Source: Zopfochytrium polystomum
Lineage: Eukaryota > Chytridiomycota > Chytridiomycetes > Chytridiales > Chytridiaceae
DNA: 64,000 nt
Direction of reading: 5' to 3'
NCBI GenBank assembly: GCA_025765615.1
Contig: JAIVFJ010000251.1
Location: 25,195 to 89,194 of the forward strand
The notes beneath the pieces are model-generated. The model saw only the letters and a program-made list of their open reading frames with translations. It did no database searches and was not told the DNA's origin. Every line of letters begins with the position of its first letter. Positions within the stretch are counted from its first letter, which is position 1. The translations under genes were made by a program, and so were the position numbers. Below are positions 2,352 through 64,000 of this stretch, in pieces.

Positions 2352-3797
2352 GTTTTGGGCCTTTTGGTGTAAGCAGTGTGCAGGAGCTTTGACCTGATAC
2401 TGCTCTGCAAGGATGACTTGCAGCATTTTGCAAGTGATGATCCTTGTAACAGTTTTGCATAAAGACAAACACAAGACTGACAGAAGCCAAGCTCAACCTC
2501 CCACCACCACCATCTTCAGTAGTGTACACCACAGCAGCCCAATCCATCAATCAGCCAACACGCGAAATCTTTCAGGACCTGTTTCAGAGGAGGTGGAGTC
2601 CTGAGCAGGGAGCCATTCTGCAAGGAGTACCAACCAGGAGACAGTTGTTCTCCTGATGTGCCTGGGCGAGACGCAAGGGATAGTGTTGAGGGCGAATTGT
2701 GTAGGGGAGTGGTTGCCTTGCCTCATAGGGTAGTGGGAGGAGCCCAGACCGGGCCACACTTGCCTCGCCACACTAGCCTACAAGCTGGGACTTCGGTGTT
2801 CGTGGGCCTTTGGTTGATTTACATTGCCAGTCTGCCACCCCAGTCTGGCCTTCCTCAGTCGTGCCTATAGTGCTCCCAGTAAGGCCCACTGGAGGTGACG
2901 TTAATTGCAGTAGCACGGAATCCAACCCATCATGCCATCACCTCCAACACCAGAGCTGTACACTGTTATCTGATTCACTTTCGCTGTGGATTACCATGTG
3001 GTTGATAGTTTTTACCAATTACAGTTTAATGGTGTTGCAGCAGATGTAAAGTTGGTTTGTTAGCTTGGTGTGTGTCAGGTAGGGGGGTGGTCGTTGTCTC
3101 CAATTGGGGACAAAAAACCAAAAATTAATGGTGAGGGTTGGAGGTAATCTGGTGACCCTGAATGGAAAAAGGCGTCGCTTATCACGAAGGAGAGCGATTT
3201 TGGGATGCCGTTGGTGACAGTCGTGTAGTCCCGAAGCAGGCCTTTCCAATGATAGCTTGGGATCGGCTGGGGGAGGTCTGGAAGGCGAGCAAATTGAGGT
3301 TGAAGTCGGAAAAGTGGGTGACAACTTTGGAGGTGGTGGATACGACGTAGGAGCGTCCGATCCAAGATCAGGAGCGTTCGTTGGAAAGAAGAGATCAAGA
3401 GCTTTCCAATGGTAGTAACGGAATTGTTGTCCAATGTCTGTAGCGCCCGTGATCGGTACGCAAAGTTGGCAGATCTGAAAAGCGTACAACCCCTTCTACT
3501 GATTGGATCTGGCTGGAACCAAGGGGAATGTGATTGGGATGGGTAACAGTTTTGTATGAAAGAATTTGCTATGTTGGCTGATTGATGGATTGGGCTGCTG
3601 TGGTGATGGGTGGAGTACACTACTGAAGGTGGTGGTGGTGGGAGGTTGATCTTGGCTTCTGTCAGTCTTGTGTTTGTCTTTATACAAAACTGTTACAAGG
3701 ACCATCACTTGCAAAATGCTGCAAGTCATCCTTGCAGAGCAGTATCAGGTCAAAGCTCCTGCACACTGCTTACACCAAAAGACCCAAAACTAACAGG
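2352..3797. repeat. Inverted-repeat module with about 200-bp arms
   Basis: Arm 1 (about 2352-2555) and arm 2 (about 3571-3797) are near-identical reverse complements, sharing for example TTTTGGTGTAAGCAGTGTGC and GACTGACAGAAGCCAAG. About 1 kb of unrelated DNA lies between. Neither arm encodes a domain I recognise. It could be a foldback-type element or two oppositely oriented copies of one retroelement fragment, since arm 1 abuts the copia fragment at 2345. Confidence 0.7.
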
Positions 3798-4078
3798 AGC
3801 CAGCCCCAACAGTGTCTTCCCTCGACTGTGGGGCCAGGGGCTTTGTTTGAGGCAAGAGATTTTGGCGTAACAATCCCAATTCAGCACGAAGATTGTAATG
3901 TGGTTGAGACGGTGAAGGTGATTGCAATTAACAGGAGATTGGTCACGATCTTGCTGGCAAGCTGGCAGAAGGTGTTTTCAGCAATCTGGCTGCGTTGGTG
4001 AGGGTAGCGGTTGCGGTTGCATTGAGGTGCTTTCGAAGGTGGTGAGCACAGCGGGGCAATCGCGATTGGGCTACCTGG

Positions 4079-4135
4079 CAGCAATCTGGCGGCGATCTGG
4101 CGGCGATCTGGCGGCGACCTCTCGGCGATCTGGTG
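4079..4135. repeat. Short tandem array of an 11-mer (GGCGGCGATCT type)
   Basis: Four to five consecutive imperfect copies of GGCGGCGATCT/GGCGATCTGGC are read directly. The surrounding 3798-4454 is G-rich and has no recognisable gene. Confidence 0.7.
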
Positions 4136-4454
4136 TCAATCAAATGTGAGGGAGCTGCGGCGCGAAGTGGCGAGTCAAGGGAGGTTGTGGGGTCGAGGTG
4201 GTGGAGCAGGGCTGCATTGAGCAACGGCGTGGATGGCCTGGGGGGTGGTGGCGGCAGTGGCAAAGGTGCAGCGGAACAGAGAGACAGACCCTGACTTTGT
4301 GAGATCAATGGGGTTGAGGTTGAGATCGTTGAGATCGCGACCTAAGGTTGCAATTGCAAATAGCGAGACTGGTGTAGAAGGCAGATATCCGGCAGATATG
4401 ATGCAGGAGGATGGCCAGGGCGGCGGTGGCGGCGGCCGCCGCAATGGCGGCAAA

Positions 4455-4850
4455 GGTGCGATCTCCCAGTTTAAGTTCAGTACTTTGTCTGGGCTAAGTA
4501 CCACCAAGAACCCGAAGCCACGCCAGTGCCATTGCAATGGACTCTGCCGTCTGCTATGTTACCTCCAAGGCACCTGGGACTACGGATTATTCTATAGGCA
4601 AAGCCACAAGCCACTACAGCTCTTCACAAACAACACCCTTGAACCAGCTGCATTCCCCTTGATGGCAATGATAGACTGCATCAGAGAAGCGTCCTTCATC
4701 TGTGCGGTCACACATGAACCAGGTAACACCCAACGCAAGCAGCCGCCTTGTTGCGTCCTGTGGAATTCGCCAGCTGCACTATGCACAGTTTGTAGGCAAG
4801 ATCGAGTTGGCATCTGGCAAGTGGGAGGTTGCAGTGATCGTGAGGAGGGC
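4455..4850 (+). pseudogene. Degenerate copia RNase H fragment
   Basis: The plus strand reads GLCRLLCYLQGTWDYGLFY in the position of the copia motif (R-x-L-R-Y-L-K-G-T-x-x-x-G-L-x-Y), then weaker similarity through a block resembling the A-D-W-A-G segment. Frame changes follow. It is a relic with no flanking LTR; the family is probably copia, but a distant relative of the two larger copies in this window. Confidence 0.5.
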
Positions 4851-48445: not shown

Positions 48446-49911
48446 GGGAAGGAGGACTTTCTCTCCTTTCCTGCTGCCCACAACAACTTCACAGAGCAGC
48501 ATGCTGCGAACAGATTTTCCCTCCTACTGGTGAAACTTGTGTCTCCTGGAGAAAAGGTGATAAGAAAAAAGGAGAAAAACTGTAAGAAAAACAGAAAAAC
48601 CCGAAGACATCCAACACGAATCCACACAAAAGTCCTTTTCTCCTCGTTTGGTTGGCACTATGGCCTTTTTGCTGCAAAAAAAACTGTAAAAAATAATCGA
48701 ATGGGTGACACCCTTTGGATAGCACGTCGCAATTTTCGCCAACAACGTTAAGCCTTCTTGTACTACTTTCATGGATGCTACATGTCCGACCTGCTCCAAC
48801 AGCCTGCCTGCTATCTCATCTTTACGCATCTGTGTGAGACTGTGCTCTCTAAATCCTCACCCTGGGCTATGGGTGGCAAATAGAGCAATGGCCTAAATAC
48901 CAATCCTGAAAAGTGAAAAAGGGCAAAAAGGAGATGTCTAGGGGTCACTAGACAGGACAATGTATTTGGAGTCTTAAGAAGCCCAAGAAACACAAAGAAA
49001 CTCTCTTATTACACACAAAGAGAAGACTCTCACACTCAGACCAAAGGCAACTGTGAAAAGGTGGCACACTAGCAAAGAATGTGCAGGGTTCTCTGGTCCA
49101 TGACACAGAGTGGGCCCAATGGGAGGCAAAAGCCAAAGCCAAAGGGGACCGGGAAATCTGGTAACAATGCTGGAGGTGCAAGATGCAGCATGCTCCAGGG
49201 AGCGGCACTAAGTGCAGCACTCCAATCCAACTGAAGAAGACAAGAGAGTGGGGAGGAAAGTGGCCAGACCCCGGTCTGTTGGAGCCACCACCATGGAGCA
49301 AGGCTCCCTCTCTGTCAAAGACAAGCCCTAAGTTGGAGGGGGTTGGACACAGAGGGCAAACACAAGGAACAGTTAGTGTGCAGAGGTGTCTGTTGAATTA
49401 AATCAGAACTGTTTTCCACTTAACAGAACCAGACACAACTTGTCTCACTCCAAGGAGAAGTTCCAACTCAATCCAAGGAGGGGGCACACAAGGGTGGGAG
49501 ACAGTGGGACTCTTCTTACTTCATCCTACTAGGACACAGACATCTGCTTCACCAAGCCAGAGGAATTCCCTATCTTAGAAGCAAGGAAGGTTAACACCCA
49601 CTCCCTCACCCAAATGTGGCACCATGACATCACAGGCATTAATCTGAGAGAAAGAGGGTCTGAACCCAGTGAAGACCAGGCCCACCAGAGGCCACAGGAG
49701 CCAACAACCAGGGAGGAGGGGGCATACCTGAGAGACCGTTCCTGCAGCAGTACCTGACCAGACAGCTCATTCATATCCCCTTGAGAGACCTGGATTTGAC
49801 TAGATGTATTGACAGGAACCTAGAGGCACCACCACAGATTTACCCTCCATCCTTCCATCACCAAGTGGCTCCTACCCAGTCCAACCTAAGCAGCATGCAG
49901 AATTGGTGAGG

Positions 49912-49990
49912 TGCACTGGGGCTTGAACCCAGCACACTGCCATCATGGCCAAGAGGACTTCAACCTCCTGTCACACACCAGGGGACTGCC
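49912..49990 (-). other. tRNA-like relic (perfect T arm)
   Basis: On the minus strand CTGGGTTCAAGCCCCAG forms a perfect 5-bp T stem with a canonical loop and box B, followed by TGCACC that could pair with a GGTGGCA about 80 nt upstream. The anticodon region GGAGGTTGAAGTCCTCT can fold but leaves an irregular long variable region. It is not a convincing functional tRNA; a tRNA-derived SINE or pseudogene is likely. Confidence 0.35.
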
Positions 49991-50682
49991 ACCCCCAGCT
50001 CTACATACAGTCAGGAAGAAAAGGGCAGGCAAGGGACTTCAGGCACAGGTTCTCACAGTCAACAAGATGGGGGGCAGCTGCTTAAATAGGAAAGGGTTGG
50101 AATCAGCAGGGTGAAGGAAGAAGGAAGGGAAAAGAGGGGAAAACATATACAAAAGAACAAAACAATAAATAAAACAGCAAAGAAGAGAGAGGAGGAGTGA
50201 GTCACCAAACAATGGGGCTGAGCCATCAAACAAGGAAGACAGCTCAGAAAATCATGGAGCATTTCTTGGCATCAGCTGCCAAGAAAGATGGAGGAGATGG
50301 AGAGAGCTGGTTGGTGCAAAGAGGAAGACAGTCACTCTCAGCCACACAAGAAAGAAAAGACACAGACAGAGACAACAAGGAATAAATAAAAGAGAAAACA
50401 GGAAAAACAGGAAAAACAGGATAAATTACTAATTGGAAAAATAAGTAAAAATCACCAATGAAAAGATAAAGAAAAACCCTGTGATCTCATACCCTTTTAT
50501 GAGGTATTACATCATGGTAGCAGGTGGTAGGGCTTGTTAGCTCTGCCATCATCTTGTTAACTCTGTCCATCTGGGCTTAGCACTTCTCCCACAGAAGTGT
50601 TTCAGTCCTAAGTCATTTCCAAAAGTGAGGGGCCATTGGCCAGGCATAGTAGGACTTTGCATTTCTGCCCAGTCTGTCAACT

Positions 50683-50747
50683 AGCATGTCTCGAACTTGG
50701 CACCTTCCCAATTGAAGGGAGCGCTCTAACCACTGAGCAAGGGAACC
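50683..50747 (-). other. tRNA-like relic next to the Ty3 element end
   Basis: On the minus strand GGTTCCC then TTGCTCAGTGGTTAGAGC gives a good D arm with box A, an anticodon-like CTCCCTTCAATTGGGAA hairpin and GTTCGAGAC matching box B, with normal spacing. T-stem pairing and the 3' acceptor strand are lacking. Probably a tRNA pseudogene or SINE head. Confidence 0.4.
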
Positions 50748-50748
50748 T

Positions 50749-51023
50749 TGTATCAGCAATCAGAATCAAGACTGAGTCTTTCTGTCTGCAACATCGCCAA
50801 TAATAAGTAATAATAGTAGAGCTCAGAGGCAGACATACAGAGCCAGTCAAAGGCCGTATGGAAACCCAATAAATAATAAGAGAGTAGGAATCCAAGCCTA
50901 GTCACGTTTTGCCAGCAAAACGCGGGTCGAGACGGGGTGGTAATCCTCACAATTACCAGTTAAAAAGTGGGTATACACTTAATTTATTTGAGGTCACAGG
51001 CTTGACAGCCTGTCGTCCTCACA
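50749..51023 (-). repeat. Putative 3' LTR of the large Ty3 element
   Basis: Minus strand, 77 bp after the polyprotein stop: a purine-rich AAAAAAGAGGTAC then TGTGAGGACGACAGG, and a possible end CTGATACA at 50749, giving TGT...ACA ends and about 275 bp. The partner LTR is not in the window, so neither the limits nor the identity are proven. Confidence 0.4.
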
Positions 51024-51099
51024 GTACCTCTTTTTTATTATCGCAGCCATAGATGCGACAAAAGAAAGGTTGTTGCAAAGTCATTCGCGGGTCCAAGGG

Positions 51100-54000
51100 T
51101 TACTTGGTTTTCTGCAGGCGGGCGCTTCTTCGCGTTCCGGTTGCAGGGAGTGGGATTGGTGTGACGGGCTGTTTCGGAATGCTCGTCGGTTTTGCAAGAG
51201 TTTCTGCAGTTGCAGGCTCTTTGCCTTTTGTAGTTGAAGCACGTGCGCGCTTCGCTGGTCGGATTGCAAGGAATTCCTCGCGTTTCTTAAACTCGCCTGG
51301 GTCGTTGTCTTTCACAAGATCCCAGTAGTCTTGGATAGCTTTTGGATGTAAGTCTTCCTCAAGCTGGTTCCAATCATGTTTGGAGGAATATCCTAACCAC
51401 TTAGTCAGATATATGTATTTCTCACCATCAAATGTGTGAGATTTAATCCGCTCGATTTGGTACTCAATATCGGCAGGATCTGCTTCATCCTCTTCAGGCT
51501 CAAAGTATCGTCTGACAAATTCAGGATGGATTCCAGGAGCCATCATTGTCTTGGAAGAAGGCTGGCGGTGTCGCTTTTTCGCTGTGCGCCATTGTTCAAG
51601 TTCTTCGTCATAGGTTGCACCAGCGAGATCTGCTGCTTCTTCTGCAGAGTCAGCAGGAAGTCGCTCAGTGTATGGTCGCAGTCGTGAGACATGCACGGTC
51701 CTGGTCACAATCTGGTTTCCAGGGAATGCCTCAACAATAGTATATTGAGCTTCAGAGTCTTTGCCGGTTATTGCAATGACTCGTACAGGGCCAACCCAAC
51801 GGAACATGAGTGAACGGTTCTTGTCGTTAAGTTTGCCAGGATTATCAAGAGGAACAGAAAGCCACGCTCTCTGCCCAAGTTGAATCTTATGTGCTTCCTT
51901 GTCTTTATCAAGCGAAACTTTTTGCAAAAGGTTATGGTGTTCTTTTGCACGTGTCATGACAGCTTGCTGCGCAGCAGCGAGTTTGTCAACAACCTCAGCT
52001 ACGTAGGGTTCTGTCAGGATTAGTTCTGAGTTCATCGATTCTTCTGAGTCAATTAGAGGCAACTCAAAGAGAATTGGAGCAGAGGCTCCAGCCCACAGTG
52101 GGAGAGCTGGTGCGAGAGTTTCGAGTGAAGGCGGCGTGAACAAGTTCAGGGTGACCTGGCGTCCTGTCTTGTTGACATAAACATACAACATCTCTCCGTT
52201 TCTTGACAAAACAGTGAGTCCGCGTTTATAAGTAGTGACTGCAACTGAATGCAGTAAGTGTTCAGGGCAAATGAGATTGCGTGGCCCATACACATAACAG
52301 GCAGAACGGTCAGCAAAAACCTGGGACGCAGCCAGAGCTGTTGTCATTCCACTAGGATTCAGTGAACTTCGCAGAAAATAAGGGAACTTTATATGTTCTG
52401 GTCGGCGACCTGGAATAGCAGGAGGCCGCTCATGAAATATGTAAAGGACATCAATGGAGTATCTGAAGATAAACTCACTCAGCACTTCATGAAGGGGATA
52501 CTCTGTCGGAAAGGGCCAGAGTTTCATTGGCAGATACTGACGGAATGTGAGTCTGGGGTTAGTTGTTCTCAGAAACACAATCCGCAGTTGTGAAGAAGAA
52601 GGCACTGGGTCTTTAGAGAAGAGCGGAAGTGCTTTCTTAGGGTACACTGCTTTTGTTGTAAGTGTCTCAGGCTCAGAGCTCTGGGACTTGAATTTGAGGC
52701 CCAGTGTGGGAAACACGTCATCATCTAACAACAAAGTTTCAGTGCTGGGTTCTCCATCCTCATCTTCAGGATAAAGAGCTTTTTCCTCTTCACTCAGGGG
52801 ATCATCTCTGTCTACTCCAGAAAACATGTCAATAGGGAGTCGACAGTCACGTCCGTGCATCAGGAAAAACGGCGTTTCTCCGGTTAGCGGGTGAACGTGG
52901 GTCCTATATGCAAATAGGACATATGGGAGAACAGACGGCCAGTCATTGTGGGTCGTCTGATCAATGAAAGACCTAATCATAGTCTTCAAACTTTTAATGG
53001 AGCGTTCTACAGCACCATTTGCTCGAGGCCATCGTGGCGACGAGAAAGTTTTCTTGGTTCCAAGTGCTTTACATAGGGCAGAAAGCAAGTCGCTGGGAAA
53101 CGGCTGACCTCTGTCAGAGTGAAGGAAAACAGGAACCCCATGTCTGCAGAACACTTGCTCTACTAAAGCGCGTGTGGTGGTTTCTGCGGTGATGTCTGTG
53201 ATGGGGACTGCTTCAACCCAACGGGTGAAGTAATCTATCACAATCATAATGTAGTGGTAACCTTCGGGAGTCTTTTTGAAAGGACCTGCAAAGTCAACAG
53301 CTACACGTTCCCAGGGATACATTCCAATGGGGACAGGATGCAGAACTCCAGATCGAGAGGGCACTGGCTTGCTTTTCTGGCAAGTTTCGCAACTTGCAAT
53401 ATGGTTGCGGAGGTCTCTACCCATTGTTGGCCAGTAGAAACGTTCAGCAAGATTATCAAATACTTTCTTGGCACCAAGGTGTCCAGAGAGGAGGTCATCG
53501 TGGACAAGTCTAAGGACATCTCTCCTTAAATTGTCAGGGACACATATGGCAAGTCGTAGCGGGGCCCTCTTCATCATGAAAGAGTATGAGTCTCTCACAG
53601 CATGGAGAACTCCACGTCGTATCACCGTCATGGCTGCTCTCTGAGTCATGGTACGAGGAGAAATACCTTCAGGGAGAGTACCATCTCTTCTAAAGCGAAG
53701 GATAGGTCCGAAGTAAGGGTCTTTGTTCTGGAGATAACTCAGAGCTCGTGGGTTATCTAAAACTTGAACCTCAGATGGGAAGCTCTCATGTAGGGCTTCC
53801 AGTGTTGCATCTGTTATGACAGTAGGTACACTATCTTCACCAGGCATATCAATTGTCATATCAAGCGGTGAGATGGCGTCAGTAATCTCCTGTTCTGTCG
53901 GAACAGTAGGCACAAGATTGCTGAGGTTTGTAAGCAGCTTGATGCGATAATGATCGCTTATGGCAAGCCCATCAAATGAGGGATGGTCTGTGTGAATTTG

Positions 54001-57000
54001 GACACTATATCTAGAAGGGTCAATGTCGTTACTCACAAGGAAATAATCTACTCGTAGCAGGGGGATCCATTCACCCGAACAAGAGGACTTCATAGTCCAA
54101 GTAAGTCCACGGGATGAAGGGAATGTACGTCGAAACGCGTCGACATAGCCAGATGCTAAGAATCTGTCAAACCACTGTCTCTCGCTCTCTAAGAGGCCAG
54201 GGAAAGTGGCATGCTCTCTCTTCAGGCGAAGGCGAAGAGAGTGGTCGACATCAAGGTCAGCATGCGCAATGTTCAAGTCTCCAGCCACAATGATGGTAAA
54301 TCCTTGCAGTCGGAGGGCTGAACAGTTTTGCATAATTTCTTCAAGGAAATTCATCTTGTAGGGTTGTCGGGATCCAGTCTCATCCGCGAAGCTGCTTGGA
54401 GCATAAACATTGAGGATTGCAAAGGGTCCAACAAGTAGAACAACAACACGTCCTTCTCTGGTGTGTTGAGGGTCTCCTAAGAAGGTGAATTCTCTACCGT
54501 TCAATTCAGAACGGTAAAAGGTGGCGACGCCATTACTTCCAGTTCTAGGATCGCAAAGCAAGCACTTCCATCCTTTAATCTGGCATAACTCATCAACAAG
54601 TTTCTGGCGTTTTAGGCCAAGACGGGTTTCTTGCAAACAAACAATACAGGAAGATTGGGAGTTGAGGAAGTCCTCAAACCGTTTTGCAGGGTCGGTTTGC
54701 TGTGCAAAGGCGACACCAGATTTATGAGCGACTCTAAGCCAGGAATACAAACCATTAACATTCCAGGAGGAGATGTTAAAAGTAGACACCCATTTAGGCC
54801 GTTCGTAAACTTCTACTACAGCAGGCTCATGCCGTCGTAGGAGATGGTGGCGGAGTATATCTTTCCGAATTGTGGGGTCAAAGAGAGATACTTCGCGCAA
54901 TGGTTTAGCTTCATCTCCTGAGTCCAACATGTTGGTCTCAGGGTCCAATTCATTGTCGGTAGCAGGGGCTACCTCTTTTTTCGCTGTGTCTCCATTATCA
55001 GAGGGAACCACAGGTTGAATGGTATCTGTCTGAGTTGCAGCTTCATCAGTGAAAACTAAGCGTTTCTCTTTACGGGCAGCAGGTCCAAGAAAAACATGTG
55101 AGAGAGCATCAGCAACGACGTTCTGTTTTCCTGACACATGAACAAGTTCGATGTCATAGTCAGAAAGCGCATAGGCCCATCGTGCAAAACGGCCAGTCAG
55201 AGGTCCTTTCTTAAACAGCTGGATGAGAGGTGCGTGATCAGTTTCAATAATCACAGGGCGGTTGAAGATGTATCGTTCAAACGTGTTGACAGCCCATACT
55301 ATGGCAAGTCCTTCACGATCGTGAGTCCAATAGCGCGTTTCTGCGTCACTTAGAACTCTTGATGCAAATCCAACGGGTTTCCGTTTCTCACGGTTATGTG
55401 GGTCATCAGGGTCCACAACGTATAGTGCAGCACCAAGGGCATAACCAGAGGCGTCACACTCAATGAGCAACTTATCATTGGGACCAGGAGTCACAAGAAT
55501 GATATCTCGTTTCAGCTCATGGCGCAGGTTGTTGAAGGCTTCTTCCTGAAAGGGCCCCCAAACAAAAGGGTTCTTTCCAGAAAGGAGGTTATACAGCGGT
55601 TTAGCTTTCTCAGAGAAATTCTGGATAAAACGCTTAAAGTAATTCGCAAATCCAAGAAACTGTTGCAGCTGGTTAAGCGTCCGTGGTGTCGGGTACTCGT
55701 CCAGGCTAACAGTCTTCGAGGGGTCTTTACGCAGTCCTTCCTTGGAGATACGATGTCCAAGGAACGGGAGATCCAGGTGAAAGAGATTGCACTTAGAGGG
55801 TTTCAGCTTAAGATTGTATTCGCTGAAGCGGGAGAAAACACTTTCAAGGTGTGCGAAATGTTCGTCAATGGAGTTTGAGTAAACTACAACATCGTCGACA
55901 TAAACCATACAATATAACCACTTAATTCCAGCAAGGACGCGATCCATTGCTCTCTGAAAGGTCGGAGGGCTGTTACAAAGTCCAAACGGCATAACGTTGA
56001 ACTCGTGAAGTCCTTGTGAGGAGATGAAGGCGGTCTTATGACGGTCTTCTTCAGCAACAGGAATCTGCCAGAATCCACTAAGTAAATCCATAGCGCTGAA
56101 CACATATTTATTACTAATTGCATCAAAAACCTCCTCTATTCGTGGGAGCGGATAGCGGTCTTTGATGGTGATTTCGTTAACTTTACGAAAGTCAGCACAG
56201 AAACGCCACGAGCCATCAGGTTTCTTTGCTAAAACAACAGGAGCAGCAAACGGGGATTTGCTTTCACGAATCACGTTAGCTTCCTTCATTTTTTGAATAT
56301 GTTCGCGTAACACTTCAGTTCTGCCAAGGCCCTCAGGGTAAGGGTTGCTTGCAGGAATGCGCGCACCTTCTTGGAGTTTGATAGTGTGCGGTGGTGGAAA
56401 CTTCTTTCCAGTAATTTTACCAGGTCGGAAGATATCGATATAGCGATATACTAAATTTTTGAGGCGAGCTACAACGTCGTCACCAAAAGTCTTAGCAATA
56501 TGCTCTGTTTTCAGTTTGGCCCAGATCTCATCATCAGTCATCTGGGACTCAGGTGGGAGATATTCCAGTTTATCTCCTTGTGTTGTATCACGACGAGGCA
56601 TATCTGCTACAGGAGTAGCTACAGCTTCAATATTGTCCTCATTTACAAGTGTTTCTTCTGAATCTGATTCAAAAAGACATTCTATCTTAGCCATTTCTTC
56701 AAAAGAGGGCGGTACAATAGAATCGGGGAAGGTCTCCACTGAGCCTTGTGTCGTATATCCTCTTCCTGCATCAGGGAAGCGGGGATAGAAAGATGTACAG
56801 GATTTGTCTACATCATCAAGGGCAGAGAGGAAAGATTCTGTATCTGCTGGGTTGTGACAATGGGCAATATTCACCATAGTCAGTAGTTGTTCCGGCTCTT
56901 CATGGAGCGTATCAGGCACGTCAATGATGTAAGATCCTGGATCAGGCGGTACATCAAGGAAATGGGCGACACAAGTTCCTTTCTTTAGAGACACTGGTTT

Positions 57001-60000
57001 GTCGCGCAGATTTAATAACTGGACCTTAAAGATCTTAGGACTGCCATCCTCATTATGGAGATCGGCAGCTGTAAATATAGAACCAGGGAAATGTATTTGG
57101 CTCTCCATCAGTGAGCCAACTGGTACAGCATGCACAGTTGATTCTTTGAATTGGAGAGGTTGCTGGAGGTGTACTTTCACAGCATGACCACATCTAGGGT
57201 CAAGAACAGTCTTTTCTGCAACAACTAGGTCAATAATGTCGCTTGGTACTGCTTCAGCCTGCATAGATTCAGTGCTACGCAGGTAATACAGTAGCGGGGT
57301 TTTAAACCAACAATCTTCTCTGCGTGGCGTAGTGGCTTCCCACATAATTGCCTCGTGTTTGAAGGAGATTATGGCGCTAAAGGCATGCATTGTCGGAGTT
57401 CCAATAATGACAGGTTTGGGACACTGCTGCATTACTGAAAAACGGAGCCATTTTCCACAGGCACCAGATTGTCCAAAATTAACTTTCAGATAAGCATATC
57501 CGATAATTGGCACATGTCCTCCAATTCCTCTGTTCATCACAGGACGAGAAGGAGGATGGATGGCAGGTGGTTTTGGTAAAGAACTCAGAAAAGAGGTAGT
57601 CACAACATTGTGACTAGAGCCGGAGTCGATAAGACATTCGGGGATAATCTTGCCGTGCACCCACATAGCAGCACGGGCAATGGTTGGAATGTTTTCGTCG
57701 AAAGCGACGTAAGACTCAGGGTACATGGTTTCATCATAAAACCTTATTTCATCGCTAAAACGCACTTGTTTTCTTATTTTCGGAGGTGTTTTACCTTCCG
57801 ATTCGTTTTTGGTAACAGACTTGTTATCCTTGTTCTCTATGATTTCTTCTAGAGGTGTTTGGATAACTGGTGTGTTGTCCCTATTTTCTGTCTCAGTGTT
57901 GATGACAGGTGCTTTCTCCTTATGTTGTGAGGGAGATTTTCCAATGACAGTGTCATCTTCTTCGTCATCGGTGTCACTAAGTTCTTCAAGCGGTGGTGGA
58001 GTGTCATCTTCAACCTCTTCAACTCTGCTGTTCGGTTCTGTCGCAGACGCGGCAGAGCCTCCCGGGGGGTCAAAAAGGGAGGGGGTACTTTGAGAGGAGC
58101 TCTCCAAAGTATCAGGAACAGGAGAAGCAGGTTCATCAGCGTCAGAGAAGGCACCACTTGTGGTGGGGGAAACCAGCTCTTTTGGAGGTGGTGTGGGTGC
58201 CAGGTGAACTTTGAAAGGGGAAGGGCGAGCCAGTTGTTGCATCCGCAACGTACAGGCAACTGTAGGCGTAATGTGAGGTAAAGGTGGAGTAACAGAGCGT
58301 ACACAAATAACATGGCCGTGGACACGCTTGTACTCAGATTTACTACTCACAAATGCACGGAGCTTCTTAGAGAGCGGCTTAACAACTGCGTAAGCACGGC
58401 AATCCCATTCAGAGCCATCAGGAGATGGAAAAAACAGGTATGGCAAGTTGTTTTGAAGAGTCAGGCGGGACTCGGTAGGAAAGTGATAAGCAATCCATGT
58501 TGGCTCATTTTGTAAGCGGTCAGGAAAGACTTTAGCAATGGCAAAACCAAGTGTAGGATCGCGTACTAAGTCAGGTGGGATCTCAACTTGACGGGGGAGA
58601 ATGAGTGTCAAGTCGACGTGTGGCGCAGTTAATTGGAGCGTCTTGACATAAAGTGGGTTGACTTCCTTACATACCCAAACAAAATGAGAGGTATGTTCAA
58701 AAGTTGAGCAAAATATTTGTTCAAAAACCACTTTATTTTTCTCATATTCTTTCAAATGAGTAAAAAATGCATCACTACCGATACGGGAAATGTGTTGAGC
58801 GCCCAATTCAGCAAAAAGGGAATTCAACGCATTGAAGAATCCCCAATTCAAACCATAAACTTGAAGGTCGGGACTGGACTTCTTGAAATCAAACAACAGA
58901 GGCACTGGCGTGGAGTCTGGAGGTTGATCAGTAAAAGAAGTGGGCAAAGAAGGGTCATACTTCTTAGCAATGAGCGCGTCGATCTCTGCAGCATACGGGC
59001 AGTCGTCGCGGAGGTGGCCAGTTTGCTTGCAGCGGTGGCAGGGCATCAAGGCTCGATCGCGTGAAGAAGAACAGGCACGCGTAGGTTCATCAGGACGGCG
59101 TTCATCTCGTCGGTCGGGACGACGGTCATCACGATGAGAGTTTGAACGACAGTCATCAGAGCGGCGAGAGGAGCCAGAGGGCTGCTGGAAGAAGCTCTGA
59201 CTGAAGTCTTCACCAATGTAAGAGCGTCGAGGTGATAATCCACGAGAGTTGTGATGGTCATGACTATCACGGCTGTCGCGACGGTCACGACTGTCACGGC
59301 AATCAGGATTTTCGTCAAGTCGAACGGTACCTGAGCGGCGATTGTAGGTGGCCTGAAGTAATGACATCCGCTCTGCAACTTGGAGAGGGGTAATGTCTAG
59401 GTCGTGGAACTTCCGCACACCACCTTCGGCTGTGAAGAAGGGTTCGGCCACCATTTGGTAGCGTAAAAGTTCATCACGGCAGGAATGAATCAGGTATTCT
59501 TTCAGTCGAGTCTCATCATAGGGCTCCTTGAGGTGCTCATTCAACAGACTGAGTTGGTTGAGTGCCACAACTGGGGAATCAACAGCGGCATTGGGCCAGC
59601 GATAATTGATCCAGGTGTTGCGAATTTTTTCGTCAGCAGTGGGACCAAGGAAGTGTGAGTCAAATTGTTTCAAGAACAAGGTCCATCGCAATTTTTGCAG
59701 TGATTTGAGGGAGTGGAAGAAATTGCGTCCACTCAGAGTCTCAAAATTCTTGATGGAGAGGAGTCCAACAAAGAAGGAACCGTCGTCCAGGTAAACGGGG
59801 CCACGGTCATCAACACTGTCTGTAACCATACTGCGGTGAGCGTTGATGAGCGACATGCGAAAACTGAGGATCTCTGGCACATCCTTTGTCATGTCCGTTG
59901 CCTTAAGTATAGGGAGGGCGTTGGCCATACGGTAGGTCTTAACCTCTTCCTTGCTGAAGGCAGGGTTAAGGCCAGTCGTTGGTACAGGCTCATCTGAAGT

Positions 60001-61911
60001 ATCAGAGTAGGCTGTTTCTCTGCGTCGGTAGGACTGTTGGGAGCTTGACTCAGAGGGGCCGTGCGAGTGACGTAACAAGGGCGCAGGGGTCTGTTCGCGA
60101 GGGCCATTGTCACTAGAATTGTGACTGGGTCCAGACAGTAGAACAGAGGTTCTCCCAGGGCTGTCCGTCAAGCCGCTGGGGGAGTGCAGTGACCTGCGAG
60201 CACGCTCGGCAGAGGCCACAACCGAGGGGTTCGGTAACACATCTGCATCCTTAACCGGTGGAGCAGGGATAATCTTGCGTCGAGGTGGCAAACGAAACTG
60301 GAACCGTGAACCAGGAGTCGTAGCAGTGGGAGGGATCTTCAGGATTGAAAGGGCCCACGCAACCCACTGATCGCGGCGCTCAGGTCGAGGCGGAAATCCG
60401 GCAGCGTGTTGGAGAAAGTCTTCTCCAGCAGAACCAGGCTGCAGGGCGCAGTCCTCTACAACAAAGAGACCAGAAATGAAGTCAAACTCCGTGTCAATAG
60501 CTTGAACAGCAAAGTACGCAAAGGGCCCTGGTACAGAGCGGAAGCCAGGGTCGTCACGGAGCGTCAGGTGGATGATTGTAGGCCACGCAACACCGTCACG
60601 AGGGTCGTCGTCTCGCGGCAAAAAGAAGCTGCCAGGAATCCGAAGGGCAGTTGCAGGTGTTCGTCCACAGTGGCGAAGGATTGAGGCGGCCCAGAGGACA
60701 GACCGTCGAAGAAAGCCAGGTCGAACAGTGGTTGCGTACCAGTGGTCGAGGTGCTGGTAGATGCGCGAAGTCTCTGAGACCTCATAGCAATCTGGAAAAG
60801 TTCCGTCCGTTAAGCGTGGAAGCATAACCAGAAATCCATGTCCGAAAGCATCAGGCGTCGGTGAATGCATGGTGAATGCAAATAAGTAGATGCTCAGTGT
60901 GATGTATCCAACTGAGGGGACACCATTGGGGTCGCTAAAGGGGCCTGCATCAAACGGGTCACCACCAGAAGGGCTGTTAGGTGGGCGGGTGTCGTCACTT
61001 TCGCCGTCATCACCATCAGAGCCAGAGTCGTCAGTTCTCTCCTGCTTAGGAGGGAGAGGAGGAGGAGCAGTGGTGTCGTCTGTTGACAGACGATGACGAG
61101 GGGCAACAGGATCACGCTTGAGTATCGTCATATGGGGAACAGCACTGGTTGGTTGTTGCTCAGGCTTAAGCAAACGAGTGGCCACAGCAGGCTGTGTGCT
61201 GGCCAGCGGTCCATGGGAAGCGACAGTGTCAGGGTGTCGATCATCGGTGCTGCGTGGGTTGATCTTGTGCGCAGCAGGGGCCTTACGAGCGGCGGCAGGA
61301 GTCTCTTCTGCTGAGAGGGTACTGTCAACAGTAAAGCGGACTCCAGGGTTCTTGGCACGCAAGGGGGAATCGTCCTCATCAGAGGGGAAGAACGACTTGA
61401 AGCGCTTCTCGCTTGCGACATTGGTGAACACTGGGGTAGTGTGGTCGATGGGCTTTGGGTCCGTAGGTGTAGCAACAGGATTGGCAGTACGCTGAGTGTT
61501 ACCAGAGCCGTACGTGCCAGCGAGGCCACAGGCGAAAGTGGGGACCTGGGCGCCAGCGGTAGGTGTCTTGGAAGGCAAAGGCGAGATTGCCATTGGAGTC
61601 GGGTCAGGGACTTCATCGAATGCAGTCTGGAGGTAGTCTGTGATAGTTGACTTGAACGGGGTGCTCAAGACGCCAATGCGTTCCTTTGTAAAGCGCAAGT
61701 CGTATCGTTGAGGCGCGAAGGGGCCATCCAACTGGGAAGAAAGGCCACCAAAAGGCTCGACAGAAGCAGGGGCGGCCTTGATAGGTGTCGAACGAGCACC
61801 AACCTTCTTTTTGCCCTGGGCAGCCTTCGGCCTAGGAACAGTGGGAGGACGGGTGGACGTAGAACCAGTCGGAGTGTAAGGGACTGAAGCTGAAGTTGTC
61901 TCTAAGGACAA
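51100..61911 (-). CDS. Ty3/gypsy polyprotein: Gag-PR-RT-RH-APE-IN-chromodomain, 3603 codons
   Basis: One open frame, no stop. Gag about 1-990 with zinc knuckle C958-C961-H966-C971. Protease CLIDSGSSHNVV (D1429). RT about 1855-2065 with YVDD (D2006, D2007). RNase H about 2145-2275 (IECDASGYALG, VSGKQNVVADALSH). Then about 2378-2660 an exonuclease III/AP-endonuclease fold: SSWNVNGL (N2384, N2386), CLQETRL (E2428), AGDLNIAHADLD (D2545, N2547), RVDYFLV (D2622), ISDHYRI (D2653, H2654). Integrase: HHCC zinc region about 2805-2855, triad D2873, D2933, E2969 (35 residues between the last two), GPY/F module about 3375-3412, chromodomain about 3480-3530 (YQIERIKSH, YLTKWLGYSSKHDWNQ). Gag packages RNA, RT/RH copy it, integrase inserts it, and the chromodomain likely guides it to marked chromatin. 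The frame opens at a TTG after a TGA; the first in-frame ATG is near residue 107, so the true start is probably upstream at 62029 (see findings). Confidence 0.93.
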   Translation of the reverse strand: MSLETTSASVPYTPTGSTSTRPPTVPRPKAAQGKKKVGARSTPIKAAPASVEPFGGLSSQLDGPFAPQRYDLRFTKERIGVLSTPFKSTITDYLQTAFDEVPDPTPMAISPLPSKTPTAGAQVPTFACGLAGTYGSGNTQRTANPVATPTDPKPIDHTTPVFTNVASEKRFKSFFPSDEDDSPLRAKNPGVRFTVDSTLSAEETPAAARKAPAAHKINPRSTDDRHPDTVASHGPLASTQPAVATRLLKPEQQPTSAVPHMTILKRDPVAPRHRLSTDDTTAPPPLPPKQERTDDSGSDGDDGESDDTRPPNSPSGGDPFDAGPFSDPNGVPSVGYITLSIYLFAFTMHSPTPDAFGHGFLVMLPRLTDGTFPDCYEVSETSRIYQHLDHWYATTVRPGFLRRSVLWAASILRHCGRTPATALRIPGSFFLPRDDDPRDGVAWPTIIHLTLRDDPGFRSVPGPFAYFAVQAIDTEFDFISGLFVVEDCALQPGSAGEDFLQHAAGFPPRPERRDQWVAWALSILKIPPTATTPGSRFQFRLPPRRKIIPAPPVKDADVLPNPSVVASAERARRSLHSPSGLTDSPGRTSVLLSGPSHNSSDNGPREQTPAPLLRHSHGPSESSSQQSYRRRETAYSDTSDEPVPTTGLNPAFSKEEVKTYRMANALPILKATDMTKDVPEILSFRMSLINAHRSMVTDSVDDRGPVYLDDGSFFVGLLSIKNFETLSGRNFFHSLKSLQKLRWTLFLKQFDSHFLGPTADEKIRNTWINYRWPNAAVDSPVVALNQLSLLNEHLKEPYDETRLKEYLIHSCRDELLRYQMVAEPFFTAEGGVRKFHDLDITPLQVAERMSLLQATYNRRSGTVRLDENPDCRDSRDRRDSRDSHDHHNSRGLSPRRSYIGEDFSQSFFQQPSGSSRRSDDCRSNSHRDDRRPDRRDERRPDEPTRACSSSRDRALMPCHRCKQTGHLRDDCPYAAEIDALIAKKYDPSLPTSFTDQPPDSTPVPLLFDFKKSSPDLQVYGLNWGFFNALNSLFAELGAQHISRIGSDAFFTHLKEYEKNKVVFEQIFCSTFEHTSHFVWVCKEVNPLYVKTLQLTAPHVDLTLILPRQVEIPPDLVRDPTLGFAIAKVFPDRLQNEPTWIAYHFPTESRLTLQNNLPYLFFPSPDGSEWDCRAYAVVKPLSKKLRAFVSSKSEYKRVHGHVICVRSVTPPLPHITPTVACTLRMQQLARPSPFKVHLAPTPPPKELVSPTTSGAFSDADEPASPVPDTLESSSQSTPSLFDPPGGSAASATEPNSRVEEVEDDTPPPLEELSDTDDEEDDTVIGKSPSQHKEKAPVINTETENRDNTPVIQTPLEEIIENKDNKSVTKNESEGKTPPKIRKQVRFSDEIRFYDETMYPESYVAFDENIPTIARAAMWVHGKIIPECLIDSGSSHNVVTTSFLSSLPKPPAIHPPSRPVMNRGIGGHVPIIGYAYLKVNFGQSGACGKWLRFSVMQQCPKPVIIGTPTMHAFSAIISFKHEAIMWEATTPRREDCWFKTPLLYYLRSTESMQAEAVPSDIIDLVVAEKTVLDPRCGHAVKVHLQQPLQFKESTVHAVPVGSLMESQIHFPGSIFTAADLHNEDGSPKIFKVQLLNLRDKPVSLKKGTCVAHFLDVPPDPGSYIIDVPDTLHEEPEQLLTMVNIAHCHNPADTESFLSALDDVDKSCTSFYPRFPDAGRGYTTQGSVETFPDSIVPPSFEEMAKIECLFESDSEETLVNEDNIEAVATPVADMPRRDTTQGDKLEYLPPESQMTDDEIWAKLKTEHIAKTFGDDVVARLKNLVYRYIDIFRPGKITGKKFPPPHTIKLQEGARIPASNPYPEGLGRTEVLREHIQKMKEANVIRESKSPFAAPVVLAKKPDGSWRFCADFRKVNEITIKDRYPLPRIEEVFDAISNKYVFSAMDLLSGFWQIPVAEEDRHKTAFISSQGLHEFNVMPFGLCNSPPTFQRAMDRVLAGIKWLYCMVYVDDVVVYSNSIDEHFAHLESVFSRFSEYNLKLKPSKCNLFHLDLPFLGHRISKEGLRKDPSKTVSLDEYPTPRTLNQLQQFLGFANYFKRFIQNFSEKAKPLYNLLSGKNPFVWGPFQEEAFNNLRHELKRDIILVTPGPNDKLLIECDASGYALGAALYVVDPDDPHNREKRKPVGFASRVLSDAETRYWTHDREGLAIVWAVNTFERYIFNRPVIIETDHAPLIQLFKKGPLTGRFARWAYALSDYDIELVHVSGKQNVVADALSHVFLGPAARKEKRLVFTDEAATQTDTIQPVVPSDNGDTAKKEVAPATDNELDPETNMLDSGDEAKPLREVSLFDPTIRKDILRHHLLRRHEPAVVEVYERPKWVSTFNISSWNVNGLYSWLRVAHKSGVAFAQQTDPAKRFEDFLNSQSSCIVCLQETRLGLKRQKLVDELCQIKGWKCLLCDPRTGSNGVATFYRSELNGREFTFLGDPQHTREGRVVVLLVGPFAILNVYAPSSFADETGSRQPYKMNFLEEIMQNCSALRLQGFTIIVAGDLNIAHADLDVDHSLRLRLKREHATFPGLLESERQWFDRFLASGYVDAFRRTFPSSRGLTWTMKSSCSGEWIPLLRVDYFLVSNDIDPSRYSVQIHTDHPSFDGLAISDHYRIKLLTNLSNLVPTVPTEQEITDAISPLDMTIDMPGEDSVPTVITDATLEALHESFPSEVQVLDNPRALSYLQNKDPYFGPILRFRRDGTLPEGISPRTMTQRAAMTVIRRGVLHAVRDSYSFMMKRAPLRLAICVPDNLRRDVLRLVHDDLLSGHLGAKKVFDNLAERFYWPTMGRDLRNHIASCETCQKSKPVPSRSGVLHPVPIGMYPWERVAVDFAGPFKKTPEGYHYIMIVIDYFTRWVEAVPITDITAETTTRALVEQVFCRHGVPVFLHSDRGQPFPSDLLSALCKALGTKKTFSSPRWPRANGAVERSIKSLKTMIRSFIDQTTHNDWPSVLPYVLFAYRTHVHPLTGETPFFLMHGRDCRLPIDMFSGVDRDDPLSEEEKALYPEDEDGEPSTETLLLDDDVFPTLGLKFKSQSSEPETLTTKAVYPKKALPLFSKDPVPSSSQLRIVFLRTTNPRLTFRQYLPMKLWPFPTEYPLHEVLSEFIFRYSIDVLYIFHERPPAIPGRRPEHIKFPYFLRSSLNPSGMTTALAASQVFADRSACYVYGPRNLICPEHLLHSVAVTTYKRGLTVLSRNGEMLYVYVNKTGRQVTLNLFTPPSLETLAPALPLWAGASAPILFELPLIDSEESMNSELILTEPYVAEVVDKLAAAQQAVMTRAKEHHNLLQKVSLDKDKEAHKIQLGQRAWLSVPLDNPGKLNDKNRSLMFRWVGPVRVIAITGKDSEAQYTIVEAFPGNQIVTRTVHVSRLRPYTERLPADSAEEAADLAGATYDEELEQWRTAKKRHRQPSSKTMMAPGIHPEFVRRYFEPEEDEADPADIEYQIERIKSHTFDGEKYIYLTKWLGYSSKHDWNQLEEDLHPKAIQDYWDLVKDNDPGEFKKREEFLAIRPAKRARASTTKGKEPATAETLAKPTSIPKQPVTPIPLPATGTRRSARLQKTK

Positions 61912-61923
61912 GGGTCAGACCTT

Positions 61924-62029
61924 ACACGGTGTTGGTGTACAACTTCATACCCTCAGGGCGGTAGGGGCCCTCACCCGAACGGGAGGCTGAAGTCGCAGTC
62001 TTCGAAGCCACAGTCGTAGTTGAAGCCAT
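61924..62029 (-). other. Short ATG leader ORF just upstream of the Ty3 polyprotein
   Basis: ATG at 62029 opens 35 codons (MASTTTVASKTATSAS...KLYTNTV) ending in TAA at about 61924, in a different frame from the polyprotein. Composition (Thr/Ser/Ala) resembles the polyprotein N-terminus. It could be the true start joined by a tiny intron or frameshift, or a separate leader peptide. Confidence 0.5.
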
Positions 62030-62698
62030 GAAGGGAAGCTGAAGTTGTTCAGTTGGTTTTTTCTGGAGCAAGTTTTGTTGCAAGCAGAAAAATCATCACT
62101 CCTTTTTACAGCAATATTTTCGCGTTTTATTATTATTTTTATGCAATTTTCTCAGCATGTGTGTTCTTATGGCACAGCATAGCACAGGGTTCAGACAAGC
62201 AGAATTGTCTGATCTTTTGTCTTTCAAACTCCGCTTTCTGCAAATGCAGGAAAGACACCAGCTTGGTAATAGAAAAAATTCTATACCTGCGGGGAGAGAC
62301 ACTTGCCAGGTAATAGGGTGAAATCCGATGTTCAGCAGGGAAAACCACTGGAAAAACAACGGAATCCAGCAAAGTGGCAGAAAACCGTTACATCATGTAG
62401 TCTGGGATAATAGAGTGAAATTCTACCCCCCAGACTTGGTAAGTTCTGTAATTCTGACGGGTTTTCAGCAGTTTGTACATTTCCTAAACAGGAAGCAGAC
62501 AAAGTTGGCTATATTGATATGGATAAATGAAAAACCAAAAATGGTTGCAGGAACGCGCAGACACGCAGAACTGCAGGGACGCATAAAAGTTGTAAACACT
62601 CGCACTATACAGGGTGCAAGAGAAACAAAAAGAATTCGCATAAAATCATCATAGTAATAAAATGATGGGGATATGTAAATGAATAACACATATAGATC
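62030..62698. other. AT-rich spacer upstream of the Ty3 polyprotein
   Basis: No recognisable frame on either strand. No copy of the putative 3' LTR start is found here, so this is not the 5' LTR of the same element as far as I can read. Confidence 0.45.
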
Positions 62699-63691
62699 TC
62701 AAGCAATATTGGTGTTGTTGTCACTGTTAGAAGTCTCAACAGTGACAGTGGGGTCCGTGGGCACAGGAGCAGTGTTACCAGGTGATACAGCTTCTGAAGC
62801 TGTGGGAGATGTGGGCAACACTAGCGGTGACGAGGGCTCATACACTGAATAAGTGTCGCATGCCTCATCGTTGTCGGCAGAAGCATCACCGATGTTGTCT
62901 GTGTGTTCCACTGCAGGTGGCGGAGCAGAGCTATACGGGGGCGATGAAGGCGTCACTGCATTGTTTCCAAGAAGAAAGCGCAACACTGCACGAGCGTTTT
63001 CAGGCAGTTGATCCACAATGACGCGAGCTGAAGCTGGAGTGGGGTTCGTCGCAAAATGAGAGACAAGTGAGGCAGGGATGGGATCCTCAGGGACCACAAC
63101 CTGGTGAACAGCAACTTGAGTTTGTTGAGGTCACCTGCCTTGGTGTCCTGCAGCAGAACCTTGAGTGCCAGGACGGTGTCAGCGTCAACACGAGTGAGTG
63201 CTTGTTCTGACGTGTGTCTGGTTCCTTTCCTTTGGGCGGCGGGCGCCAGCACCGTTAGGAGCAGGATCGGCCTTCGAGGCGAGACGGCAGAGGTCGTGCA
63301 GGCAATACTCGATCCATGAGAGTGCGAACAACAGTCTAGCTTGTCCAGCTGCAGCTGAGGAGACGAGGAGGAGGGACATATCCTCAGCACGTTGGGCGTT
63401 CCGATTGTATTGGTACTGGAGCTTCGACACGCGGTTGCGCCCGAGTCGGCGGCCGTTGTGAGTTGAACGCCCTGCCTCAGCGGTTGGGCACGCGTACAGC
63501 AGGCTTCGCAAGGTTGTCCTCCGCTCCACAGACAGAGGTGGGGGTTCGATGGAAATCGGCAGACGTATGGACTTGGTGTGCGTCTCGGGTGTGTTAAGCC
63601 CACAGGGATACGCACAGACCAGAGGGAGAAACACAAGGTCTTGAGCGGTGAGAGAGCAGAGATCGATGGCGCTGACGCTTAAGAGCGGCAA
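62699..63691 (-). pseudogene. Unidentified ORF with two compensating frameshifts, upstream of the Ty3 polyprotein
   Basis: About 330 codons in the same orientation as the polyprotein. The frame from 63691 runs to about 63208, shifts by one (…KERNQTHV then TSEQALTRVD), runs to about 63117 and shifts back (…NKLKLL then QVVVPEDPIPASL), ending TAA-type at 62699. The two shifts cancel, so the outer parts share one frame. The C-terminal third is Pro/Ser/Thr-rich. The start at 63691 is not an ATG; the nearest in-frame ATG is further in. No domain recognised; it may be an accessory ORF of the retroelement or a neighbouring gene. Two single-base errors in the sequence would also explain it. Confidence 0.45.
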
Positions 63692-63723
63692 CTAAACCGA
63701 AGAAGAAGGAAGCTATTCCCAGA

Positions 63724-63966
63724 CTTTGGCACGTGTAAGGAGACCTTCAACACGCGGGGAACACGGCAAACTGACAGCACAGTACCTTTGGCACGTGTAA
63801 GGAGACCTTCAACACGCGGGGAACACGGCAAACTGACAGCACAGTACCTATTCCCAGACCAAATCGTTCTCAATTAGTTAAAACCTCAAAGAAAAAGTCC
63901 TTCCACCTTTGGCACGTGTAAGGAGACCTTCAACACGGGGAACACGGCAAACTGACAGCACAGTAC
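63724..63966. repeat. Three copies of a 62-bp unit carrying CACGTG
   Basis: Units at 63724-63785, 63786-63847 (directly tandem) and 63907-63966 (2 bp shorter, after a 59-bp spacer). Each begins CTTTGGCACGTGTAAGG and ends GACAGCACAGTAC. The E-box palindrome CACGTG is present in all three. A CTATTCCCAGA motif occurs at 63713 and again at 63848. Confidence 0.9.
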
Positions 63967-64000
63967 CTATGTGCCCAAGTGGAAGTGAAGAAGGGGGGGG

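Follow-up and report, generated by a model that had tools for sequence, protein, structure and literature searches.

A Ty3/gypsy-type LTR retrotransposon family of Zopfochytrium polystomum with an ExoIII/AP-endonuclease-class nuclease inside pol

Reverse transcriptases (RTs) of retroelements lack proofreading, and their cDNA may collect uracil, abasic sites and ragged ends. According to excerpts of the papers cited here, some elements with long terminal repeats (LTRs) carry enzymes of nucleic-acid maintenance in pol. The dUTPase of fungal, planarian and rotifer LTR elements varies in position; in LTR elements and retroviruses its sites include RT–integrase (IN) and protease (PR)–RT (PMC2864245, PMC6431247, PMC5408684). 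Bdelloid rotifer LTR elements captured a 3'-5' exonuclease, of the DEDDy fold and in a separate ORF3 (PMC5408684). Kuafuorterviruses, an animal LTR reverse-transcribing lineage with an I/V/LADD RT motif, have sporadic Exo_endo_phos domains, which may come from their hosts (PMC11673190). Nucleases of the same superfamily (EEP) occur in mobile elements as endonucleases of long interspersed nuclear elements (LINEs) and as the apurinic/apyrimidinic (AP) endonuclease of Helentrons (PMC6431247). Fungi also have complex LTR elements into which many domains are inserted, viewed as multiple insertions (PMC3248453). Here we analysed a 64,000-nt stretch of the Zopfochytrium polystomum genome (contig JAIVFJ010000251.1, positions 25,195 to 89,194; "the window"), extending to the end of its contig (C251 below). 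It holds a Ty3/gypsy-type retrotransposon with an EEP domain of the ExoIII/AP-endonuclease (APE) class inside pol, between RNase H (RH) and IN.

The gag-pol polyprotein is encoded on the minus strand, as are all features given below, in a frame free of stops over 3603 codons (51100..61911). Its start codon is uncertain, because the listed start is a TTG, no in-frame ATG occurs before codon 107 and a stop in the same frame lies upstream at 61915-61917. Pfam placed a reverse transcriptase (RVT_1, residues 1896-2055; 55747..56226; E 1.1e-33) and an RNase H (residues 2118-2252; 55156..55560), the closest solved relative of this RT/RH being yeast Ty3 (4ol8, 235 bits). The EEP domain follows (residues 2378-2660; 53932..54780), and after it the H2C2 zinc-binding domain of the integrase (residues 2791-2849; 53365..53541, Pfam) and the rve core with both catalytic D (residues 2869-2960; 53032..53307; 43.5 bits, cut-off 32.6). 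The catalytic E was found just downstream of the rve match (53005-53007). As 35 residues separate it from the second D, the integrase is of the DD35E type. The original prediction, made from the letters and their open reading frames (ORFs), had put RH, an APE fold, IN and a chromodomain in one frame. Frame, RH, EEP and DD35E integrase were all recovered, and the chromodomain-like stretch (51319..51462) stayed below the Pfam cut-off (18.6 vs 25.1 bits).

The EEP assignment drew on Pfam, NCBIfam, a structural model and catalytic columns. Exo_endo_phos (PF03372) matched residues 2382-2654 with 60.3 bits (cut-off 24.5), and TIGR00633 (xth) scored 132.4 bits against a curated cut-off of 99.05. The predicted structure had a pLDDT of 89.8. 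Among solved proteins, archaeal and bacterial ExoIII were the closest in sequence (E 1e-25), followed by APE1 (about 1e-15), and no LINE endonuclease was found at E<=0.01. The best structural match was Mth0212, two entries of which are named DNA uridine endonuclease. For comparison, L063, an EEP from the same genome that we call LINE-type from its L1 endonuclease match and 1280-codon frame, its RT set aside, had L1 endonucleases as top matches. All eight ExoIII/APE catalytic residues stood at the expected columns in the window EEP, so the motifs read as intact were indeed intact and none was misplaced. Judged by its sequence relatives, the EEP is thus of ExoIII/APE type and not of LINE-endonuclease type. 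Fold and catalytic residues are shared with Mth0212, XthA, ExoA, APE1 and APE2, which are cellular stand-alone repair enzymes.

The window EEP gave 103 match rows in the 80.16-Mb genome and the window integrase 151. Of 1033 integrase candidates the best 150 were scored, so copy counts are lower bounds. The 41 integrase rows with identities of 49% or more were merged into 37 family loci, and 32 of these 37 listed loci had a same-strand EEP no more than 2.5 kb upstream. The first such pairing used 75 EEP rows out of 103; a rerun with 197 rows left the outcome unchanged. Ordinary Ty3 elements of the genome, many with 1255-codon frames, served as control: none of the 109 listed integrase rows of 33–34% identity had an EEP within 5 kb upstream. 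With the limit at 8 kb one of the 109 had one, on C10, where a relic EEP copy lies at 5.2 kb. The distance from RT/RH to IN was 316 nt in all 12 ordinary Ty3 pairs measured, vs 1687 nt in the window copy. Ty3 elements with and without an EEP thus occur within one genome, a built-in control.

By EEP identity to the window, the copies fall into subfamilies A (94–99%), A2 (74–83%), A3 (54–55%) and B (36–39%), and three B copies retain frames of 3723–3741 codons. A protein from outside this genome, P0001 (3585 aa, JGI source), was the sole return among 601 candidates when the EEP region of the polyprotein was the query. It has the window's order of RVT_1, RNase H, Exo_endo_phos, H2C2 and rve, and its EEP is 32% identical to that of the window. 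The catalytic set (N, E, Y, D-x-N, D, D-H) was complete in 24 of the 25 element EEPs aligned, the remaining one lacking its C-terminus. These 25 comprise 24 copies from this genome plus P0001 and span A, B, P0001 and two further lineages, C and D, described below. Outside the table were the degraded or partial L023, L024 and L029, two more D copies (L026, L027) and the relics in L062, L068 and L070.

The EEP is under purifying selection and has been kept by the element family. Nei-Gojobori counts of the window against three A copies (L013, L016, L017) and two A2 copies (L004, L005) gave the EEP a dN/dS of 0.04–0.09, both among A copies and between A and A2. In these pairs RT had 0.01–0.15, RH 0.04–0.11 and IN 0.07–0.38. 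The two linkers flanking the EEP had 0.31–1.61 within A, where numbers are small, and 0.07–0.29 from A to A2. The EEPs of a B pair (L001 vs L007; pN 0.142, pS 0.849) and of a C pair (L010 vs L019; pN 0.136, pS 0.736) also differed mainly at synonymous sites. From A to B, dS was saturated in nearly all domains. It is close to certain that a large Ty3/gypsy-type LTR family carries, inside pol and between RNase H and integrase, a nuclease of the ExoIII/AP-endonuclease class.

Like the Ty3/gypsy chromoviruses (yeast Ty3, fungal Tcn1-like elements), the element has the order RT-RH-IN, a DD35E integrase, LTRs, a polypurine tract (PPT) and, in its relatives, 4-bp target site duplications (TSDs). Unlike them, it has the extra ExoIII/APE domain, a single-frame polyprotein of ~3600–3740 codons and a weakly recognized chromodomain. 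In the excerpts returned by an open-licence full-text search, no ExoIII/APE domain was described in the pol of an LTR element with a DDE integrase; those from PMC11540331, PMC4112212, PMC5348765 and PMC3391268 dealt with APN2 or LINE endonucleases, or came from a figure key or a listing of search profiles. The nearest precedents in these sources are the dUTPase of Ty3 elements and the sporadic Exo_endo_phos of Kuafuorterviruses (PMC11673190), whose RT motif differs from the YVDD of the window. The original statement that no LTR element is known to carry both enzymes needs softening in view of the Kuafuorterviruses. What stands out here are the unusual domain in an LTR element and the unusually good evidence for its selection. 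The family blurs the split between LTR elements, with their integrase, and LINEs, with their APE-type endonuclease; when PF03372 alone is read as LINE, such elements can be misfiled in annotation.

Two further EEP-bearing lineages were recognized in the genome. In lineage C (L010, L019) the order is RT-RH-EEP-H2C2-IN, in a single 1223-codon frame in L010 and split over two frames in L019. Its rve match (28.4 bits) is under the cut-off of 32.6, and its RT is ~26% like the window RT. When lineage C served as the query of a protein search, none of 5553 candidates was a relative at E<=0.001. In the three copies of lineage D (L025-L027), the EEP comes after a protease ORF (Asp_protease_2, 23.7 bits against a cut-off of 24.3) and before RT, RH, H2C2 and an integrase core assigned by eye, for which Pfam rve did not reach E 0.01. 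With the EEP before RT, these loci were at first candidates for LINEs, which the upstream protease ORF and the downstream RNase H and H2C2 ruled out. The D RT is 38–41% like that of C and 28–33% like those of the listed A/B and plain elements. The window RT/RH is 38% like plain Ty3 elements, closer than to C. These pairwise RT scores, with no RT tree behind them, suggest that A/B is one Ty3 lineage and C/D another. Additional C/D-type RT, EEP or IN matches were seen at C153:45993-47604, C241:271-2197 and C88:215264-217058.

As to function, we lean modestly towards a nuclease that mends cDNA, a mechanism that takes in the anatomy of the element. The EEP would be made within pol, and cleavage of the polyprotein by the protease would allow it to be packaged with RT and integrase. 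During and after reverse transcription, it could incise abasic sites of the cDNA and strip blocked, mispaired or untemplated 3' ends. RT could then extend the cleaned ends and the integrase would be given clean 3' ends, integration proper being the task of the DD35E integrase. The dUTPase is an analogy, since it occupies the same pol slots (RT/RH–IN or PR–RT) and works on the same problem of uracil and abasic sites in cDNA; it is a nucleotide hydrolase, the enzyme here a nuclease. The finding suggests that some such elements bring their own nuclease to mend or trim cDNA, and with a family that keeps its EEP, nature offers a way to test if LTR retrotransposition is limited by cDNA repair. More tentatively, LTR elements in this genome may repeatedly use an ExoIII/APE module for cDNA repair and proofreading, which would give them a base-excision or 3'-end-editing step of their own; the module would have been recruited or exchanged on two or more occasions (in A/B and in C/D) and placed in two pol slots.

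The abasic pocket bears on the kind of activity. At its two columns, by alignment, the A/B EEPs have W and L (V in one A3 copy), L standing at the W280 column of APE1. P0001 has W/W, C has W/F and D has W/M; among host genes, APE1 has Y/W and the Apn2-like gene C/T. The loss of the F266/W280 hydrophobic pocket typical of APE2/Apn2 was not seen in the A/B EEPs, and a first reading of their pocket as APE2-like was dropped when the column table showed one aromatic retained. In the excerpts consulted, the abasic pocket is described as variable, E. coli ExoIII having one aromatic and a relatively strong exonuclease, and APE2, without the pocket, favours exonuclease substrates (PMC5785985); APE2 is strong as an exonuclease and weak as an AP-endonuclease (PMC6122073). 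From the pocket columns and these statements, we predict that the element EEP combines AP-endonuclease and 3'-5' exonuclease activity.

Several observations weigh against the cDNA-mending role. Five of the 37 listed family integrase loci (C19, C26, C85, C139 and C244:89403) had no EEP, and among the matches listed, plain EEP-free Ty3 elements were more numerous. Two degraded relatives of lineage D (C27:91834 and C96:9645; RT 47–49% like that of D) had no neighbouring EEP match. Between A and B, the EEP is 36–39% identical, RT 70–79% and IN 62–65%, so the EEP diverges faster, and its substrate may vary or matter less. Activity, packaging, processing and substrate of the EEP are all things that we infer. 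The rotifer elements with a 3' exonuclease are a cautionary case: in the excerpts, copy number did not correlate unambiguously with it, and no departure from neutrality was significant (PMC5408684), whereas the EEP, of an unrelated fold and inside pol, is under purifying selection.

The EEP might instead act mainly on host or target, whether it opens damaged chromatin sites for the integrase, takes out lesions made by the host, for instance deaminated cytosines, or processes RNA. We regard this as possible but doubtful. ExoIII-class enzymes act on several substrates, which would suit it, as would the uridine endonuclease name given to Mth0212.

A second alternative concerns the source of the domain, which the original prediction had sought in capture of a host Apn2/APE2 repair gene. 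In approximately unbiased (AU) tests, the host Apn2-like gene was not rejected as the partner of A/B and P0001 (p=0.48), nor was host APE1 (p=0.22); the tree contained one Apn2-like row, assembled from exons. YKM and GD-N-AH-type blocks are common to element EEPs and Apn2, but similar blocks are also found in bacterial ExoIII, and ExoIII is the best match in both sequence and structure. The element pocket differs from that of the host Apn2-like gene, and a GRF zinc ribbon is absent from the ten families in the Pfam scan of the polyprotein. A GRF search of the genome carries no weight, as its control gave no match. The domain is indeed not LINE-like, as had been proposed; its descent from Apn2 in particular gained no support, the tree not resolving the donor, and we hold it to be unlikely.

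A passenger or structural module with no catalytic use is quite improbable. Retroelements are known to capture ORFs that they do not use, and the faster divergence of the EEP than of RT and IN between subfamilies fits such a role. Against it stand the catalytic residues, retained in nearly all copies aligned, and the dN/dS of the EEP in A, which is under that of its own linkers.

Still more improbable is LINE-style nicking of target DNA by the nuclease to prime reverse transcription, an alternative insertion route raised by the original prediction. EEP domains do this in LINEs, and the EEP of lineage D precedes RT as in LINE ORF2. Two A copies, on C350 and C77, retain the 3' end and lack the 5' part; this is a LINE-like trait, which simple deletion explains equally well. 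The full-length A copy on C55, part of a tandem LTR array, has unequal flanks. No whole A copy has thus been shown with a clean target duplication, and for A one is supported only by a lone LTR on C55, which has an internal deletion and is flanked by GACC on each side. On the other side, two B copies (C40, C61) have LTR pairs of 908 and 1098 bp, each 100% identical, and 4-bp TSDs (CGGT, GCCT). A D insertion in the leader of the A copy on C55 has LTRs, the TSD ACGG and an empty site in C117; the first 185/185 bases of its 5' LTR recur at the 3' LTR start in L037. The EEP is also closer in sequence to ExoIII than to LINE endonucleases, and the integrase itself is conserved. To our knowledge, LINE-endonuclease elements and Helentrons have no DDE integrase and no LTRs. 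Both the LTR pairs and 4-bp TSDs of the two B copies and the empty site of the D insertion suggest that the integrase is what inserts EEP-bearing elements; since these LTRs and TSDs are ordinary, the nick-primed route finds little support. A non-LTR element inserting by target-primed reverse transcription had at first been considered, when no LTR pair was seen in the window and two copies looked 5'-truncated, and was abandoned once the LTRs were found. An assembly join or one-off chimera, to which the contig end inside a repeat adjoining the ORF might have pointed, is refuted by the recurrence of the domain order at many loci, spread over different contigs, and in a protein from another source.

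The remaining anatomy of the window copy is that of an LTR element. The motif LIDSGSSHNV (57604..57633), found by eye, we take to be that of an aspartic protease; no protease family was found at E<=1 in the Pfam scan of the polyprotein. With PR placed from this motif, the polyprotein has the Ty3/gypsy order PR-RT-RH-IN with a DD35E integrase. A Gag CCHC zinc knuckle (58996..59043) was below the Pfam cut-off (17.9 vs 20.8 bits). Between the integrase core and the chromodomain-like stretch, ~450 residues (3031-3480; ~51472-52821) had no Pfam match; by eye, at least a DVLY block is common with P0001.

The 3' LTR (48833..51023; 2191 bp, TGTGAGG...TCTCACA) is 99.9% identical to the LTR at C55:164321-166511, where the leader follows. 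A candidate LTR of 202 bp was rejected as merely the end of it: nine of ten loci matched the window unbroken throughout the compared stretch, and L054 had a break. The PPT (51024..51040) has the same GAGGTAC end before the LTR as subfamily B. The 5' leader covers 61912..63457, its remainder and the 5' LTR lying past the contig end, as the leader breaks at 63457 and 63458..64000 is the 3' LTR end of a nested D-type EEP-bearing LTR retrotransposon, inside which the contig ends. After the 5' LTR, A has GGGGGGGGCTTCC and B GTGGGGGGGATTC; by eye, with no tRNA comparison, no orthodox primer-binding site was recognized.

The nested D-type element (LTR about 1976 bp, TSD ACGG) sits at the same site in the leaders of the window copy (63458-64000) and the C55 copy (L037, about 2872-4847; start of L059). 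Because of this identical site, the two copies look like duplicates or alleles. Repeats of 62 bp lie inside the nested LTR (63724-63966). On C55:164321-171868 (L059) there are three tandem A LTRs, the two intact ones 2797 bp apart, and ~606 bp of other sequence between neighbours is repeated together with them. On C117 (L033, L034) there is a head-to-tail arrangement of A copies with a common LTR, in a repeat of 4894 bp and 99.98% identity. Viral-contig scans and an Rfam scan of the window gave no matches. ARAGORN called a tRNA-Phe inside the A LTR (window 49908-49996), also in L033, L034 and L059, and the C117 leader has a stretch with a CCACCA end that is tRNA-like by eye.
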